IMG/VR virus record: IMGVR_UViG_3300033146_005163
Coordinates: 1 to 23,235 of that record
DNA from: a virus
Direction: 5' to 3' (one strand)
DNA length: 23,235 bases
The notes beneath the pieces were generated by a model that was not told the DNA's origin, ran no database searches, and saw nothing but the letters and a program-made list of their open reading frames with translations. Below, in pieces: positions 846-10,785 of this stretch (positions within the stretch are counted from its first letter, which is position 1; every line of letters starts with the position of its first letter). The position numbers were made by a program, and so were the translations under genes.

Positions 846-1205
846 ATGATGAATTGTGAAATTTGTAGCATTGTTGGTAGTGGGCAAGACAAGTTTGGTG
901 ATGCTGTTAATTGGATTTGTAAAAAAGACGACACGTGGGAAACGGCACAAGATGAAGACGACACAGTTTATATCGGCGGCGAAAATTCAGCTGAGGTTGA
1001 ATTTGATGACATTGGCATTTTTGCTGACGCCGCCGAAGCCTTAGGGTGGAATATGGAATCCTGGGCATGCCAGGAATGTGGGCATTCGATTGAACAGTAT
1101 GCTATTGGAGATGGTATGCTTTTTAACGGGAATGAGGGGGACGGGTGGCAATTCCTGCCATATGAAATGTTGCCGGAGGAAAAAATGTGTAATTATTGCA
1201 AATAA
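846..1205 (+). CDS. Small acidic cysteine-rich protein, unrecognised
   Basis: 119 residues, starting at ATG 846 behind AAAGGAGA (833-840), a strong ribosome binding site at proper distance. The protein is very acidic in its middle part and carries spaced cysteine pairs: C4/C7 near the N-terminus, CQEC near residue 75 and CNYC at the extreme C-terminus. This suggests metal (zinc) binding. No catalytic motif and no known family were recognised. It has its own regulated promoter with palindromic operators and its own strong terminator, so it is a single-gene transcription unit next to the prophage control region. Whether it belongs to host or phage is unclear. Confidence 0.8.
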   Translation: MMNCEICSIVGSGQDKFGDAVNWICKKDDTWETAQDEDDTVYIGGENSAEVEFDDIGIFADAAEALGWNMESWACQECGHSIEQYAIGDGMLFNGNEGDGWQFLPYEMLPEEKMCNYCK

Positions 1206-1211
1206 AAGCAA

Positions 1212-1249
1212 AAGCCCCTGGGAGCGGTATCTCCCAGGGGCTTCTTTTT
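1212..1249 (+). terminator. Strong rho-independent terminator
   Basis: A perfect 13-bp stem (1212-1224 with 1231-1243, core AGCCCCTGGGAG) closes a six-base loop and is followed by a T-rich tract to 1250. It sits six bases past the stop of the gene at 846 and ends that unit. Confidence 0.92.
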
Positions 1250-1250
1250 T

Positions 1251-1331
1251 CCCTTGCAGGGAATTAACACCCGGCATTTTTTTTGGAGATCGAAGCCAAA
1301 AAATCCCTTACAGGGAATTGATAGCCGGGAT
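1251..1331. repeat. Diverged 27-bp direct repeat upstream of an HTH gene
   Basis: Bases 1251-1277 and 1305-1331 match at 22 of 27 positions, sharing CCCTTxCAGGGAATT and a following CCGG. Each core (CCCTTxCAGGG) is itself a short inverted repeat. The copies lie 54 bases apart, ending 22 bases before the ATG at 1354, so they may be operators for that gene. Only two copies exist, with substitutions between them, so a CRISPR array is not supported. Confidence 0.6.
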
Positions 1332-1353
1332 ACTTTTATATAGGTGAAATTTT

Positions 1354-1665
1354 ATGGATAGTCAAGAATTTTTGGATTTAAGGAAAGCAATGAAGTTGAA
1401 GCAAAAAGCCCTGGCCGGAAGACTGGGTGTAACCCAGGGTACTATTGCAAAATACGAAAAGAGGGTCGGAGGGGTGCCGGAGCCAACTGCCAGGTTACTC
1501 CGCAGGATTTATAGAGAATGGAAAACCTACTGCATAGGCGCCCTAAATATTCAGTTCATCCCGTGCGGCCAATTCCATTATAATATGGCACACTGGATAA
1601 GCCTTTCAGATGTGGATCATTTAAACAATGAAACCTGGGGCGCGTATTATGAAGAAAAATTGTGA
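1354..1665 (+). CDS. XRE-type helix-turn-helix protein
   Basis: 103 residues from ATG 1354 behind AGGTGA (1342-1347). Residues about 5-55 form an XRE/Cro-C1 HTH domain: a LRKAMKLKQKALAGRLGV stretch followed by the recognition helix region TQGTIAKYEKRVGGVPEPTA. The remaining 50 residues (from TYCIGALN onward) match nothing I know, and could be an unusual tail or the result of a frameshift at the end of the HTH domain. The protein is a plausible regulator of the palindromic operators at 734-781 or of the direct repeats just upstream of its own start. It faces away from the prophage repressor. Confidence 0.8.
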   Translation: MDSQEFLDLRKAMKLKQKALAGRLGVTQGTIAKYEKRVGGVPEPTARLLRRIYREWKTYCIGALNIQFIPCGQFHYNMAHWISLSDVDHLNNETWGAYYEEKL

Positions 1666-1823: not shown

Positions 1824-2657
1824 TCAATCATCCTCAATTTGCAGCACATCTACCATCAAAGCTTTTTTGACATCTTTAATATTTAACTTGCATCCAAATT
1901 CATCTGATAATGAACCGGCTATGCTTGATAAGATTTCATCTTTAAGGAGAGTGCTGACAATGTTTTCATATTTCAGGGCATCTATTTTTACCCATAAATT
2001 TTCGAGCAGGCTTTGCTTTTTCATGCCGTTTTTTGAAAGAAGGTAGAAGTATTGCGCATCGATCACACGGCTTAAGCCATCTCGGATATCTATGGAATAC
2101 ATTGGAATATACTTTACCTTATCAATTACAGTTACCCGGTATAGTTGCCAGATAGGTCCGTTTGTGAGCACTGCCCATTTTATGCCAGAATATGCTGCAT
2201 AAGATGTGGCTTGAAAAACCTGCTTATCCCGTAATGCCATGCCTGCTTTTTTGGCTTCTATTACCATTGTGTCTTTTCCATCAATAGACACCACGTAGTC
2301 TGCTTTCTTCCCCTGTATTTTTTGTTCTGTTTTTATCTCTTCTATTGAATAGCCAAGAACATCTTGCAGTATTTTATCCAGTATTAATCTGGTGTCACTT
2401 TCGTTTTGTTTGTTTAGTATGGCGGCATTAAGCGCTGGCAATATCGGGTCAAGCGTGGGTCTAAGGTTTTTTATTTCTTCTATTATTGCATCTCTTGCAG
2501 ACTTGGGGCTGTCTTCATCTGTTATTTCAATGTCTTTTTGTTCATCTGCAAAGGTGGCCGTGAATTCAGCCCCGCAATTTTTGCAGGTAATTTTAGTTAA
2601 GAACTCACTATCTTTAATGGTGAAAGTTTTTTCACATTGCTCACATTTTGTTCTCAA
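1824..2657 (-). CDS. Zinc-ribbon protein with HsdR-N-like nuclease domain
   Basis: 277 residues. The start is TTG at 2655-2657, chosen because AAAGGAGG lies six bases upstream (2664-2671) and no ATG fits. Residues 5-28 form a zinc ribbon (CxxC at 5/8 and 25/28, second knuckle CKNC). Residues about 80-200 resemble the N-terminal domain of type I restriction R subunits (HSDR_N): GKKADYVVSIDGK with D120, VIEAKKAG with E134-A-K136 (the PD-(D/E)xK core), then QVFQATSYAAYSGIK and WAVLTNGPIWQLY. No helicase follows. The gene starts 45 bases after the repressor stop on the same strand, so it is probably cotranscribed with the repressor and expressed in the lysogen. A role in defence or superinfection exclusion is inference. 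Confidence 0.85.
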   Translation of the reverse strand: MRTKCEQCEKTFTIKDSEFLTKITCKNCGAEFTATFADEQKDIEITDEDSPKSARDAIIEEIKNLRPTLDPILPALNAAILNKQNESDTRLILDKILQDVLGYSIEEIKTEQKIQGKKADYVVSIDGKDTMVIEAKKAGMALRDKQVFQATSYAAYSGIKWAVLTNGPIWQLYRVTVIDKVKYIPMYSIDIRDGLSRVIDAQYFYLLSKNGMKKQSLLENLWVKIDALKYENIVSTLLKDEILSSIAGSLSDEFGCKLNIKDVKKALMVDVLQIEDD

Positions 2658-2702
2658 GTTATGCCTCCTTTTTTTCCCAACATAATTAGTTCAGCCATTA
2701 AG

Positions 2703-3155
2703 TTAAGTTCCCGATAACGCCGTTAAACTTTCAACAGCCAGTTTTATAAGTTCCGGATCTTTACTGCTTATGATCCGGCTGACCAGGCGCATAGCTTCCC
2801 TTGCTGGCTGCATGTCCCTGGTCTCCGGGCGCACATTGCCCTCTTCCACCCTACCGCCCGTTTGTACAACACTCCCTGAACCGTTGTTCTCAACGTAGAA
2901 ACCATTTCCAATATTTCCTCTAATGCCGTTTTCTACATTGCCTCTACGTTCATACATTTCCCCTTCTCCGGTCATGAGCCAGTTCAAATTCACGCCAAAT
3001 TTTTGATGAAGCATGTTTAAAAATTTGGCATCAGGTAGAAATTTGCCCTGTTCATAGTTTGCGTAGGTTGATCTACTTATCTGAAAGCAATCGGCAAACT
3101 GTTGCTGGCTTCTCTTTTTTCTGATTTGAGATAATCTCTGTCCGAGCGATGACAT
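2703..3155 (-). CDS. Prophage repressor, XRE HTH type
   Basis: 150 residues if started at the ATG ending at 3155 (weak GGTG site seven bases upstream). An ATG ending at 3179 would add eight residues. The N-terminus is a C1-type HTH domain (LGQRLSQIRKKRSQQQFADC, then ISRSTYANYEQGKFLPD and the LNWLMTGEG end seen in many phage repressors). The C-terminal half is a Gly/Asn-rich linker and a short helical tail. There is no LexA-type Ser/Lys peptidase domain, so induction by self-cleavage is not expected. It is divergent from the early operon and faces the perfect inverted repeat at 3221-3264, in the position of the Mu c repressor. Confidence 0.87.
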   Translation of the reverse strand: MSSLGQRLSQIRKKRSQQQFADCFQISRSTYANYEQGKFLPDAKFLNMLHQKFGVNLNWLMTGEGEMYERRGNVENGIRGNIGNGFYVENNGSGSVVQTGGRVEEGNVRPETRDMQPAREAMRLVSRIISSKDPELIKLAVESLTALSGT

Positions 3156-3220
3156 TTTTTTCACCAAAATATTACACATTATTCCAAAAACTTACGTTTT
3201 TTATGTCCAAAATTTAATCA

Positions 3221-3267
3221 GTACTACTAAAATTTTGTTGACATACTCAAAATTTTAGTAGTACAAG
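3221..3267 (+). promoter_or_regulatory. Early promoter with 16-bp inverted-repeat operator
   Basis: GTACTACTAAAATTTT at 3221-3236 is exactly inverted at 3249-3264 with a 12-base spacer. The spacer and arm edge hold TTGACA (3238-3243), and TACAAG at 3262-3267 is a fair -10 at 18 bases. A repressor dimer pair on these arms would cover both promoter boxes. The site lies between the divergent repressor and the first early gene, so it is the likely lysis-lysogeny switch. The repressor's own promoter on the minus strand is not obvious. Confidence 0.82.
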
Positions 3268-3311: not shown

Positions 3312-3527
3312 ATGAAATATCCCTTTAAATCAATAAAAAAATTAAGAGATGCCCTGTATGAGCAAGACCTTAATTATAGAGGATTTGCCAAGAAGTATGG
3401 CTTTAAGCTGAACACAGTTCGAAATGCAGTGTACCGGCATTGGGGCAAGGATGAAGCCCCGCGTGGGATAACCAGAGATGTTCTCAAAAAACTAGTTTTA
3501 ATTTGCAAGGAGGAAGTAACACAATGA
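3312..3527 (+). CDS. Small HTH protein, BcepMu gp16 / Ner-like
   Basis: 71 residues. The start at ATG 3312 follows GTGAGG by six bases. An in-frame GTG at 3267 overlaps the promoter -10 region and is unlikely. The sequence (LRDALYEQDLNYRGFAKKYGF, KLNTVRNAVYRHWGK, ITRDVLKKL) has the layout of the BcepMu gp16 family of short phage DNA-binding proteins: an N-terminal helix, then GFAKKYG, then the recognition helix. It is the first gene of the early operon, directly behind the operator, where Mu has Ner, and so probably controls early and repressor transcription. Its stop overlaps the following ATG (ATGA at 3524-3527). Confidence 0.82.
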   Translation: MKYPFKSIKKLRDALYEQDLNYRGFAKKYGFKLNTVRNAVYRHWGKDEAPRGITRDVLKKLVLICKEEVTQ

Positions 3528-7410: not shown

Positions 7411-8279
7411 TGGGAAAATATATCATTTTCCGGGATTTTGAAACACATATGGATGAGGATGAAGACGGGCTGTTTGTATCCATTCCCCTTGACCTTATCC
7501 TGCAAAAAATTCCCAAGACCGGAAAGGCTGCTGTGTATCAGGATCAGGCTGCGGTGGAGCTGGAGTATGAAAGCCGGCTCCAGGGTGTTGAGTGGAGGCC
7601 GTGGATGGCACTGAACCTGCAGCAGACTAAAGACGGCAAACGGGCACTGAGCGCATATGCAAAGCTGCTCAGTGAGCTGGCAGGATTTCATAAAAAATAT
7701 GGGACAAAGGCAATGACTCGTGCTTTGAGAATGTGCTGGCAGCCCCGGCACGCCAACATTCCATATGTTCGGACAATCTTAAAAAATGATGCATTAGGGA
7801 AAGGGGAAGAACATCAAACCAGCCCTGCTGCATCCTCCTGGAAAGAAGTTTTGTCTGCAATAAAGCATTTGGATGTTTGCTATAACAAGAAGTTTACAGA
7901 CCCGAAAATACAGCCTGTTATTCAGAAAATGGGGGGCTGGGATTCATTCCGGGGGCAGACAACAAAGGTGGTTACTTCCAGGAAACGGGATTTTTTTGAC
8001 TTTTATCTGACTTTTTCAGCAGCCGAACCGGTAGATCTGCATCGTGCACCCGGAATTTTGCAGGATCTGGCAGCGAAAATCATAAAGCCTGTTGAAAAGA
8101 AAAAGATTATCCCCATTAAATCCTTCAAGAGAAAACCCAGGGGAAGGGATACAAAAGTAGCTATTAGGGACGTAATCCAGGCTGGAGATACCCGCGGAAT
8201 GGCAGTGTTTCAGCGTGAATACCCCACAAGATATGCGGAGGTTCAAAATGAGCTGGCTAAGCTACAAGGAAATGGCTAA
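7410..8279 (+). CDS. Unrecognised early protein preceding the transposase
   Basis: 289 residues. ATG 7410 overlaps the TAA of the previous gene (TAATG), indicating coupled translation. The protein has an acidic N-terminus (HMDEDEDGLF), a helical middle with WRPWMALNLQQTKDGKRAL and RALRMCWQPRHANIPYVRTI, and a basic C-terminus (KSFKRKPRGRDTKVAIRD) that could bind DNA. No family is recognised. Its 3' end overlaps the transposase start by 32 bases, which ties its expression to transposition; it may be an accessory factor. Confidence 0.8.
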   Translation: MGKYIIFRDFETHMDEDEDGLFVSIPLDLILQKIPKTGKAAVYQDQAAVELEYESRLQGVEWRPWMALNLQQTKDGKRALSAYAKLLSELAGFHKKYGTKAMTRALRMCWQPRHANIPYVRTILKNDALGKGEEHQTSPAASSWKEVLSAIKHLDVCYNKKFTDPKIQPVIQKMGGWDSFRGQTTKVVTSRKRDFFDFYLTFSAAEPVDLHRAPGILQDLAAKIIKPVEKKKIIPIKSFKRKPRGRDTKVAIRDVIQAGDTRGMAVFQREYPTRYAEVQNELAKLQGNG

Positions 8280-10107
8280 AAAACTAGACGTTTCTCAGCG
8301 TACTATAAAGCGCTGGGCAAAAGACCCGGAAAAACACGGACTGATAAAACGGGAAAAAGGATTCCATGAATCCGGACGGAACCGGATCCAATTGGCAAAA
8401 AAAACAGATCAACCGGTTGATGTCACCAAACAGATGAATATAAAACCGGAAGATATCCACCTGGCTCCCAATGAGTACCAGTTTGACCACTTCCTCTATA
8501 AGAAATTATTGGGGAAAACAGGGGATAACCTCCGCCAGGCTCGCAGATATTATACCCGTAAATTCAGGGAAACCGGGGAAGTTCCTGAGTCTTTGAAAGT
8601 GGTTGATGGGCGGAGTGTTAATGGCGGGAATGGCAGGGGTTCTGCCATAACCCCGGAAATAGAACAGAGATTCTGCGAAATGGTCAGGGCTTCGGCAATG
8701 GCTGACCCGTCTGATCCTAATTTTATGACCCAGAGATTACGGAAGATAGTAAATTATCGGCGCCGGCTTTTAGGTGAGTTCCCAGGTGTAGAGATCTCAA
8801 AGCACGGGCTGGGGAATCTGGTTAAAAAACACAGGCTCAGGGGCTTTATGAATCGGGCCGACTATGACGAGGAGAACATCAGCAAGAAAGTTACGTACTT
8901 CAATCCTGAACCGGTATTGGGTCTTATCCAGATGGACGGTTCAACCTTGAAATGGCTTGAAATGAGGGATGATAAAGGCGTGTTCCGGCAGCCTATTGTC
9001 ATTGAATTTTTTGACACAGGCTCCAGGAACCTGCTGGCTATGGATTTATATTCCTCGGAATCATCTGCAAATTCCGTTGATATTTTTTCTAAGTTTCTAA
9101 AGGCCACGCCCTTTCCTCTCCAAAAAGTCAAGATCAGGCCGGACAATGCCCCGGGATTTTTAAATTTAAAGCGTCCTATTCATCACCTAAACCGTAAATA
9201 TTCCATGCCCGACCGGTTTTACATGGATCCGGATTTTGCCAGGGTCAGAGCGCCAAAACATAAGGTGCATCTTGAAAGTTCACACAGGGCATTGCATAAT
9301 TTCGAGGATCACATCATCCATACGTTATCAGATAAGATTCTGGAACGACGCCAGGGCGTGAAGTTCGTAAATAACAAGCGTATAACAGGCACTATAACAC
9401 GCCTGGACATGACAATATCTGACCTGGCAGCAACCGGGCTTATTGAAAAATACAGGGTTGAACATAATGAAAAAATGCACAACTTCACTGAAGGCGGGCG
9501 CACCGGCTGCAAGTGGAGACCTGCTGAAAAGCTGGCAGATTTCCTAAAAGGCCGAGAATGCATCCAATTTACAGATGAAGATATAAAAGAGTTCAAGCTG
9601 TACGGGTACCCGAAAAGCAATGTCCGAACTATTCAGAACGATGGCACATTTCAGTATAATAGCCGGCGATGGCAGGTTGTTTCTGCTGAGGCTGATAATT
9701 TTAAAGGTGTTAAGACAAAGGTCAAGCTGTCGGAAGTTGACGGGGAAGTTTATCTATTCGGCCCGTCATCCGATGGCATAATGCTGGGCAAAGCGGCGGC
9801 GGTGGGTGAGTCCGTGGCACCAAGAAAAATAACTATAAATGCTGAAAAACGGCTGAAAGCCAATGAGTTTGAAATGATCTGCAAATATCTGCAAGAGTGT
9901 GAAATGCGCATAAATGCAGACCGGGTGCTGGGTATGTACAATCAGGGCCTGACCTTAAAAACTGCTGTGGAAATATATGCAGCCAATAAAGAACGCTATG
10001 AAAGCAAACAAAACCCCATGATCGTGTTTAACCTGTTCATCAGCGACTGGGGCCGGGAAATGGAAAAGGGGCACAAGGTCCTGCCGTATGCCAACCTGGG
10101 GAATTAA
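8248..10107 (+). CDS. Mu A-type DDE transposase
   Basis: 619 residues from ATG 8248, seven bases after GGAGG (8236-8240). A GTG at 8215 lies further inside the previous gene and is less likely. Residues about 3-45 form a MerR/HTH-like domain (YKEMAKKLDVSQRTIKRWAK). The RNase H-fold core carries the catalytic triad: D in IQMDGSTLKW (about 230), D in KIRPDNAPGF (about 299) and E in VHLESSHRAL (about 343). A beta-barrel and helical tail follow, as in MuA (663 residues). The enzyme binds the phage ends and carries out strand transfer for integration and replicative transposition. It is followed after nine bases by the ATPase that delivers target DNA. Confidence 0.95.
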   Translation: MSWLSYKEMAKKLDVSQRTIKRWAKDPEKHGLIKREKGFHESGRNRIQLAKKTDQPVDVTKQMNIKPEDIHLAPNEYQFDHFLYKKLLGKTGDNLRQARRYYTRKFRETGEVPESLKVVDGRSVNGGNGRGSAITPEIEQRFCEMVRASAMADPSDPNFMTQRLRKIVNYRRRLLGEFPGVEISKHGLGNLVKKHRLRGFMNRADYDEENISKKVTYFNPEPVLGLIQMDGSTLKWLEMRDDKGVFRQPIVIEFFDTGSRNLLAMDLYSSESSANSVDIFSKFLKATPFPLQKVKIRPDNAPGFLNLKRPIHHLNRKYSMPDRFYMDPDFARVRAPKHKVHLESSHRALHNFEDHIIHTLSDKILERRQGVKFVNNKRITGTITRLDMTISDLAATGLIEKYRVEHNEKMHNFTEGGRTGCKWRPAEKLADFLKGRECIQFTDEDIKEFKLYGYPKSNVRTIQNDGTFQYNSRRWQVVSAEADNFKGVKTKVKLSEVDGEVYLFGPSSDGIMLGKAAAVGESVAPRKITINAEKRLKANEFEMICKYLQECEMRINADRVLGMYNQGLTLKTAVEIYAANKERYESKQNPMIVFNLFISDWGREMEKGHKVLPYANLGN

Positions 10108-10116
10108 GGAGAAAGC

Positions 10117-10785
10117 ATGAAAAAGAAATTTATAAAGGATGCTCAACGGGAAATGGCTTTGAATGCCGTATATAACAGGATGCGCCGCGGCAAAAGCTCC
10201 ATGATACTGGCAGAATACGGGCATGGGAAAACAAGCCTTCTGCAGATGCTCCGCCCCAGAAAAAAGAAGCTGGTCTGGGTAGAGTCCCTGGGAGGAGTTC
10301 ATCATATCCTGGCTGAAATACTAAGCCAGGTAGCTTATGAATGTGACCCGAAAGCTCACTTGAAAATGAAGCACCTTTCCGAAATCCGTAAATATTGTGC
10401 AGGGAATGCAATTGTTATTATTGATGAATGTAACGATCTTCAACCGGTTGTCTGGCCGTATTTAAAAAGAATCATGGACGCAGGGGTGCCCATACTCCTG
10501 GCAGGGCTGCCCAAGGTTAAGTATTTTCTCCGGGAAAAACATGGGGATATACTGAGCCGGCTAAAAATTATTGACCTGCAAAGTGTTGGGGTTGATGACT
10601 TTAAAAAGAAGTTCGTTATCTTTGAACCGGAAGCCATTGATGTGGTTTATGGGGAGTCAGGCGGAAATATGCGGCGCATGGAAGAGCTGATTGATGACTG
10701 CATTGATAAATTTGAAGAGATTAACAAGGGCCTGGAAACGAAAATGGACAGGATAAGCATTGATATTGTTGCGATGTTTATCTAA
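10117..10785 (+). CDS. Mu B-like AAA+ ATPase, transposition target protein
   Basis: 222 residues from ATG 10117 behind AAGGAGA. Walker A is AEYGHGKTS (residues 32-40), Walker B is AIVIIDEC (98-105), and LLAGLP (127-132) is the sensor 1 strand. This is the AAA_22-type layout of MuB and related transposon ATPases. MuB has 312 residues; here the N-terminal HTH part is absent and the ATPase core starts almost at once, as in many Mu-like phages. It selects target DNA, activates the transposase and protects nearby phage DNA from reinsertion. It is translationally close to the transposase. Confidence 0.93.
   Translation: MKKKFIKDAQREMALNAVYNRMRRGKSSMILAEYGHGKTSLLQMLRPRKKKLVWVESLGGVHHILAEILSQVAYECDPKAHLKMKHLSEIRKYCAGNAIVIIDECNDLQPVVWPYLKRIMDAGVPILLAGLPKVKYFLREKHGDILSRLKIIDLQSVGVDDFKKKFVIFEPEAIDVVYGESGGNMRRMEELIDDCIDKFEEINKGLETKMDRISIDIVAMFI

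Follow-up and report, generated by a model that had tools for sequence, protein, structure and literature searches.

A fragment of a Mu-like temperate phage carries, directly behind its repressor gene and on the same strand, a gene for a predicted restriction-type nuclease. We lean towards the view that this nuclease is expressed in the lysogen and used against superinfecting phages, because of the position of the gene, its intact active site and the precedent of other repressor-linked genes. The whole stretch of DNA analyzed, hereafter the window, was the IMG/VR virus record IMGVR_UViG_3300033146_005163 (23,235 bases). Its Mu-like character is given by a Mu-type transposase, a MuB-type ATPase and a Mu Gam-like protein, detected with Pfam and PHROGs, and it contains further phage genes for terminase, portal, head and tail-completion proteins. 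Integration into a host was not directly observed, and the record, like many of the related loci, is a fragment. The features that bear on the regulation of the nuclease gene are as follows:

1824-2657, minus strand: nuclease gene, 277 aa, TTG start (ORF list, Pfam, phrog_17239 at 3e-41)
2658-2702, minus strand: repressor-nuclease junction, 45 nt, with GGAGG at 2664-2668, 6 nt before the TTG
2703-3155, minus strand: CI-type repressor, 150 aa (HTH_19 4e-14, Phage_CI_repr 1e-8, RstR-family 1.8e-9)
3221-3264: perfect inverted repeat with 17-bp arms (3221-3237/3248-3264), operator-like, separating the repressor from the divergent early gene
3312-3527, plus strand: first divergent early gene, 71 aa, in a Ner/Cro-like position (weak BcepMu gp16 and DNA-binding matches)
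8215-10107, plus strand: Mu-type transposase (phrog_310 transposase, 4.9e-7)
10117-10785, plus strand: MuB-type ATPase (phrog_296 DNA transposition protein, 2.6e-12; AAA_22)

The repressor, for which an alternative start at 3179 is also possible, is homologous to the repressors that precede the nuclease in the Mu-like prophages at loci L181/L131 and L191. The inverted repeat at 3221-3264 is a good operator candidate. A second perfect 17-bp inverted repeat (733-749/766-782) lies inside a TTGACA-type promoter-like site on the plus strand, and precedes genes for a 119-aa CxxC protein (846-1205) and a 103-aa HTH protein (1354-1665), the latter resembling the C-terminal half of MqsA-type antitoxins. 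This pair (846-1665, plus strand), which is convergent with the nuclease gene, is putatively self-regulated or toxin-antitoxin-like. At the left end of the record, a 50-nt inverted repeat (1-50/241-290, 96% complementary) is either an assembly artefact or an element end.

At the nuclease start the minus strand reads ...AAAAAAAGGAGG-CATAAC-TTG. The TTG start is supported by the nearest relative of the gene, a chromosomal homolog (L180) that likewise begins with TTG after GGAGG. Between the repressor stop and the nuclease start lies a mini-ORF of 14 codons (2658-2700, minus strand; MAELIMLGKKGGIT), whose TGA stop shares bases with the TTG (TTGA), possibly reflecting translational coupling, or chance. 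No promoter-like or terminator-like sites were found in the 45-nt gap, which is weak evidence because the scan was limited to sigma-70 type sites. The nuclease gene is very probably co-transcribed with the repressor. Co-expression is well supported because the two genes share a strand, the gap is 45 nt and free of recognizable promoters, the ribosome site is strong and the arrangement recurs in many unrelated phages, 15 of which have repressor-nuclease gaps of -31 to +46 nt. The gene layout agrees with the original prediction, which had placed the nuclease start 45 bases after the repressor on the same strand, with a near-ideal ribosome site, a TTG start and probable cotranscription.

Three domains were distinguished in the nuclease protein:

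2556-2657, minus strand: N-terminal zinc ribbon, residues 1-34, with C5, C8, C25 and C28 (Zn_ribbon_4 and model)
2085-2405, minus strand: HSDR_N PD-(D/E)xK domain, residues 85-191 (PF13588, fold and conserved residues)
1827-2075, minus strand: C-terminal six-helix domain, residues 195-277, about 80 residues (models with pLDDT 93.8 and 91.4)

The original prediction had described a zinc ribbon fused to an HsdR-N-like PD-(D/E)xK domain without helicase or methylase, and suggested a profile search with PF13588. The search bore this out: HSDR_N_2 (PF13588) matched well above its cut-off (E 4e-10; 40.1 bits vs 25), HSDR_N (PF04313) matched slightly below its own (2.7e-5), and Pfam detected neither a helicase nor a methylase domain in the 277-aa protein. 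For the ribbon, the Zn_ribbon_4 match was sub-threshold (1.7e-5; 25.1 vs 30.3 bits); the CxxC...CxxC pattern is plain in the sequence, AlphaFold2 modelled the ribbon confidently, and Foldseek returned a weak match to LysW (5eio_C).

The AlphaFold2 model was built on an alignment of 40 family members and reached a mean pLDDT of 93.8. Structure comparison of the model revealed a core fold similar to that of the HsdR subunit 3h1t (Z 12.3 over 118 residues, rmsd 2.9), BpuSI (Z 12.1), DrdV (Z 11.6) and EcoR124I (Z 9.1). Residues E86, D120, E134, K136, Q149 and Y153 belong to the nuclease domain, and the last five are invariant in 133/133 aligned relatives. A W-LTN motif is equally constant in these relatives; it was given little weight, since most of them were gathered using this motif and its constancy is uninformative. 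Sequence and model thus identify a PD-(D/E)xK protein with the catalytic D...ExK and the core fold, and we infer that it is active as a nuclease. The C-terminal six-helix domain is conserved within the family, and fold searches of the PDB gave no clear match to it. The conserved unit is HSDR_N plus the helical C-terminal domain; the N-terminal part varies and the zinc ribbon is optional. The predicted pairing of a zinc ribbon with a lone HSDR_N is therefore present in the window, but is too narrow as a description of the family.

The nearest relative mentioned above is a solitary gene in a Desulfobacterota chromosome, with 74% protein identity. Between the two genes, pS is 0.77 (saturated) and pN 0.15, indicating purifying selection on the nuclease gene. 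The ORF is not a chance one, because this protein identity was retained with saturated synonymous sites. DNA similarity between the window and this locus is confined to the nuclease gene, and the pattern indicates that the gene is under selection and travels on its own, as a single-gene cassette.

To quantify linkage to repressors, we grouped 71 viral contigs into 54 distinct cases, each with sufficient sequence upstream, counted a same-strand repressor-type HTH gene upstream as linkage, and used the other ORFs of at least 150 aa on the same contigs as a control. A repressor was found within 600 nt upstream of the nuclease in 27/54 cases, compared with 21/434 control ORFs (Fisher 7e-17), and within 60 nt in 13/54 compared with 8/434 (Fisher 9e-9). 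The survey of repressor-adjacent genes proposed with the original prediction thus confirmed that the linkage recurs. About half of the viral copies had no detected repressor linked, as counted with ORFs from a simple longest-ORF script by which some neighbours are spurious and some repressors were missed. Among bacterial-genome loci, a repressor lay within 600 nt upstream in 6/63. Since the HTH profile had been seeded from nuclease-adjacent repressors, a Pfam count was run as an independent check. It gave HTH_3 16, Peptidase_S24 10, Phage_CI_repr 6 and Arc 2 among 50 ORFs upstream of nucleases, and HTH_3 1 and none of the other three among 44 control ORFs, an enrichment at Fisher 1e-4 and 1e-3. 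On a tree of 133 rows, 29 changes of the linkage label are required, and well-supported branches force at least 18 of them; we read this as linkage having changed many times and give no exact number, because it is a quick tree and the changes mix gains and losses.

The gene might be a passenger, that is, a nuclease from the host chromosome whose function is unrelated, which tolerates a place behind a repressor and brings no phage-tied benefit. Chromosomal copies are indeed widespread, the majority of relatives are chromosomal and lack a repressor, and the closest of all is chromosomal and solitary. These copies also lie outside defence islands: PADLOC matches were similar among 138 nearest-neighbour ORFs and 128 ORFs further off, and with no enrichment near the gene an argument from defence islands was dropped. 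Against a passenger stand the purifying selection and the supported changes on the tree combined with the strong enrichment on viral contigs, which argue for repeated selection for the repressor-adjacent slot. We consider a passenger unlikely.

The arrangement was seen in several kinds of phage. Zinc-ribbon relatives (about 40-53%) follow a repressor in two further Mu-like prophages, G403 and G419, which places this form in the repressor slot of three different Mu-like phages. The order in G403 (L131/L181) is repressor, 62-aa CxxC protein, nuclease, D12 methylase; G419 (L191) contains MuA, MuB, a Ner-like gene, repressor and nuclease. In G168 (L176) a zinc-ribbon relative comes after a CI-like gene, and on the viral contig L006 one comes after a repressor. 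In two members TerD replaces the zinc ribbon: at L007 5314-6705, by Pfam and with a repressor upstream, and at G436/L184 1498-2787, by alignment and by eye. A second copy in G403 (L182 8621-9670) has two tandem zinc ribbons and an OLD-like ATPase gene close by. A ribbon-less member is found in the Thermus phage Riverbug.

Other observations were made at related loci. Staphylococcal-nuclease-type genes occur beside the HSDR_N nuclease at L033 5359-5880 and L176 12765-13436, one directly upstream and the other a few genes downstream. A zinc-ribbon member in a Thiotrichales MAG (L051 6998-7885) adjoins a terminase gene, and no repressor was detected there. A search of viral contigs for transposase relatives, meant to find close phages without the nuclease, returned none, and a single-protein scan of viral contigs gave no matches. 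The window-type transposase, together with its small upstream genes, was found in Desulfobacterota chromosomes (L188, L189, L190 in G168, L205 and L211), with three near-identical copies within one genome. These are either short Mu-like transposons or decayed phages, and the elements examined contain neither repressor nor nuclease.

With the repressor as its constant neighbour, the nuclease could instead serve the phage itself, in its regulation, in transposition or in the repair of DNA. Transposition of Mu-like phages involves the handling of DNA ends, and zinc ribbons are often modules that bind protein or nucleic acid. The family is not confined to Mu-like phages, however, as it also stands beside the repressors of integrase phages and of Riverbug and in chromosomes without a phage, and in the window the gene lies on the repressor strand, opposite to the transposase and replication genes. 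Such an internal role therefore appears distinctly unlikely.

Downstream of the nucleases, integrases or serine recombinases are often found, and 66 downstream ORFs gave single matches to Abi_2, AIPR and a D12 methylase. In the G403 Mu-like prophage a D12 adenine methylase comes after the nuclease, and a cluster of type I-like restriction genes is found near the copy in G168. Both would suit selfish addiction, in which the nuclease eliminates cells cured of the prophage and a paired methylase protects the others, as in type II restriction-modification. Methylase matches were only single among the downstream ORFs, however; neither the surroundings of the window gene nor most other loci showed a methylase to our inspection, no other self-protection gene was noticed in the window fragment, and a Mu-like prophage is not easily lost. 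We regard addiction as very unlikely.

Accounting for the gene as a defence factor of the lysogen, we propose the following. As the second cistron of the repressor transcript in a Mu-like temperate phage, the nuclease would be made during lysogeny, with the lytic genes silent. The encoded protein would be an HsdR-N/type IIG-like nuclease that cuts double-stranded DNA, probably as a dimer. The N-terminal module, here the zinc ribbon, would probably serve for sensing or DNA docking, and the helical C-terminal domain for dimerisation or control. Most likely it would cleave DNA entering the lysogen, from superinfecting phages or from other elements. As to the target and the way in which self DNA is spared, we infer that recognition would depend on modification, on DNA structure or on a partner protein, and not on a methylation-protected site. 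Weighing against a defence role are the lack of defence-gene enrichment around chromosomal relatives, the absence of the family from PADLOC and the viral copies, about half, without a detected repressor. More tentatively, with somewhat less than even confidence, we suggest that the window protein represents a widespread, unnamed single-gene defence family, in which HSDR_N and the helical C-terminal domain are combined with exchangeable sensor modules (zinc ribbon, double ribbon or TerD), and which was recruited repeatedly into the repressor operons of unrelated temperate phages and tells self from foreign DNA without a methylase.

If this is right, a single-gene nuclease family joins the repressor-adjacent prophage arsenal, with many test cases at hand. 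It also raises the question of how the cell is spared by a lone restriction-type nuclease that it produces all through lysogeny. For phages remote from the standard model hosts, the repeated recruitment would mark the repressor-adjacent slot as a hunting ground for defence genes.

Among known systems, the N-terminal nuclease domain of HsdR (3h1t, EcoR124I) shares its fold and catalytic motif with the window protein. Membership in type I HsdR was rejected: the superfamily 2 helicase motor is missing from the 277 aa by Pfam, and there was no HsdM or HsdS partner among the ORFs next to the gene in this fragmentary record. The N-terminal nuclease of the type IIG enzymes BpuSI and DrdV likewise matches in fold; the window protein has neither their methyltransferase nor their target-recognition domain, and a PADLOC type IIG match covers residues 97-177 only. 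Shedu (SduA) is a single-protein PD-(D/E)xK nuclease with exchangeable N-terminal parts. Its core family is different, and the Shedu nuclease family DUF4263 was absent among Pfam matches at E up to 1. PADLOC-DB 2.0.0 holds no model for the family and gave only weak, partial type IIG and Cas4 matches.

The factor had been predicted to be undescribed. It has indeed no PADLOC model, and no functional test of any family member was found in open PubMed Central papers, but the family itself is already on record. Gp55 of Riverbug, annotated 'restriction endonuclease' (PQ109080), belongs to it (37% over the nuclease core) and occupies the same slot, in the order LexA-like regulator, 4 nt, gp55, periplasmic-domain gene, integrase; unlike the window protein, it has no zinc ribbon and comes from an integrase phage. 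Similarly, phrog_17239 (function unknown in PHROGs) matches window residues 71-274 at 3.2e-41 over profile positions 18-223 of 259, leaving the zinc ribbon uncovered.

Genes that act on other phages are known from the repressor-adjacent slot that is read in the lysogen. In the B3-like phage Fc02, the lysogen transcript spans the repressor and the next ORF, which has no assigned function (PMC9936078); the 'HsdR' in that paper is merely a strain genotype and was rejected as a related gene. The defence genes of CarolAnn and Sbash were likewise rejected as family members, being of a different family. The CarolAnn proteins gp43/gp44 (DUF4747 and a membrane protein) are unrelated to the window nuclease, but their rexAB-like genes are co-expressed with the repressor and act on other phages, and together with lambda RexAB they exemplify repressor-cotranscribed accessory genes that block other phages (PMC6426606). 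The slot between cI and integrase is a defence hotspot in P2-related and Bacillus prophages (Rousset et al., PMC9122126), a lysogeny-operon position like that of the window gene.
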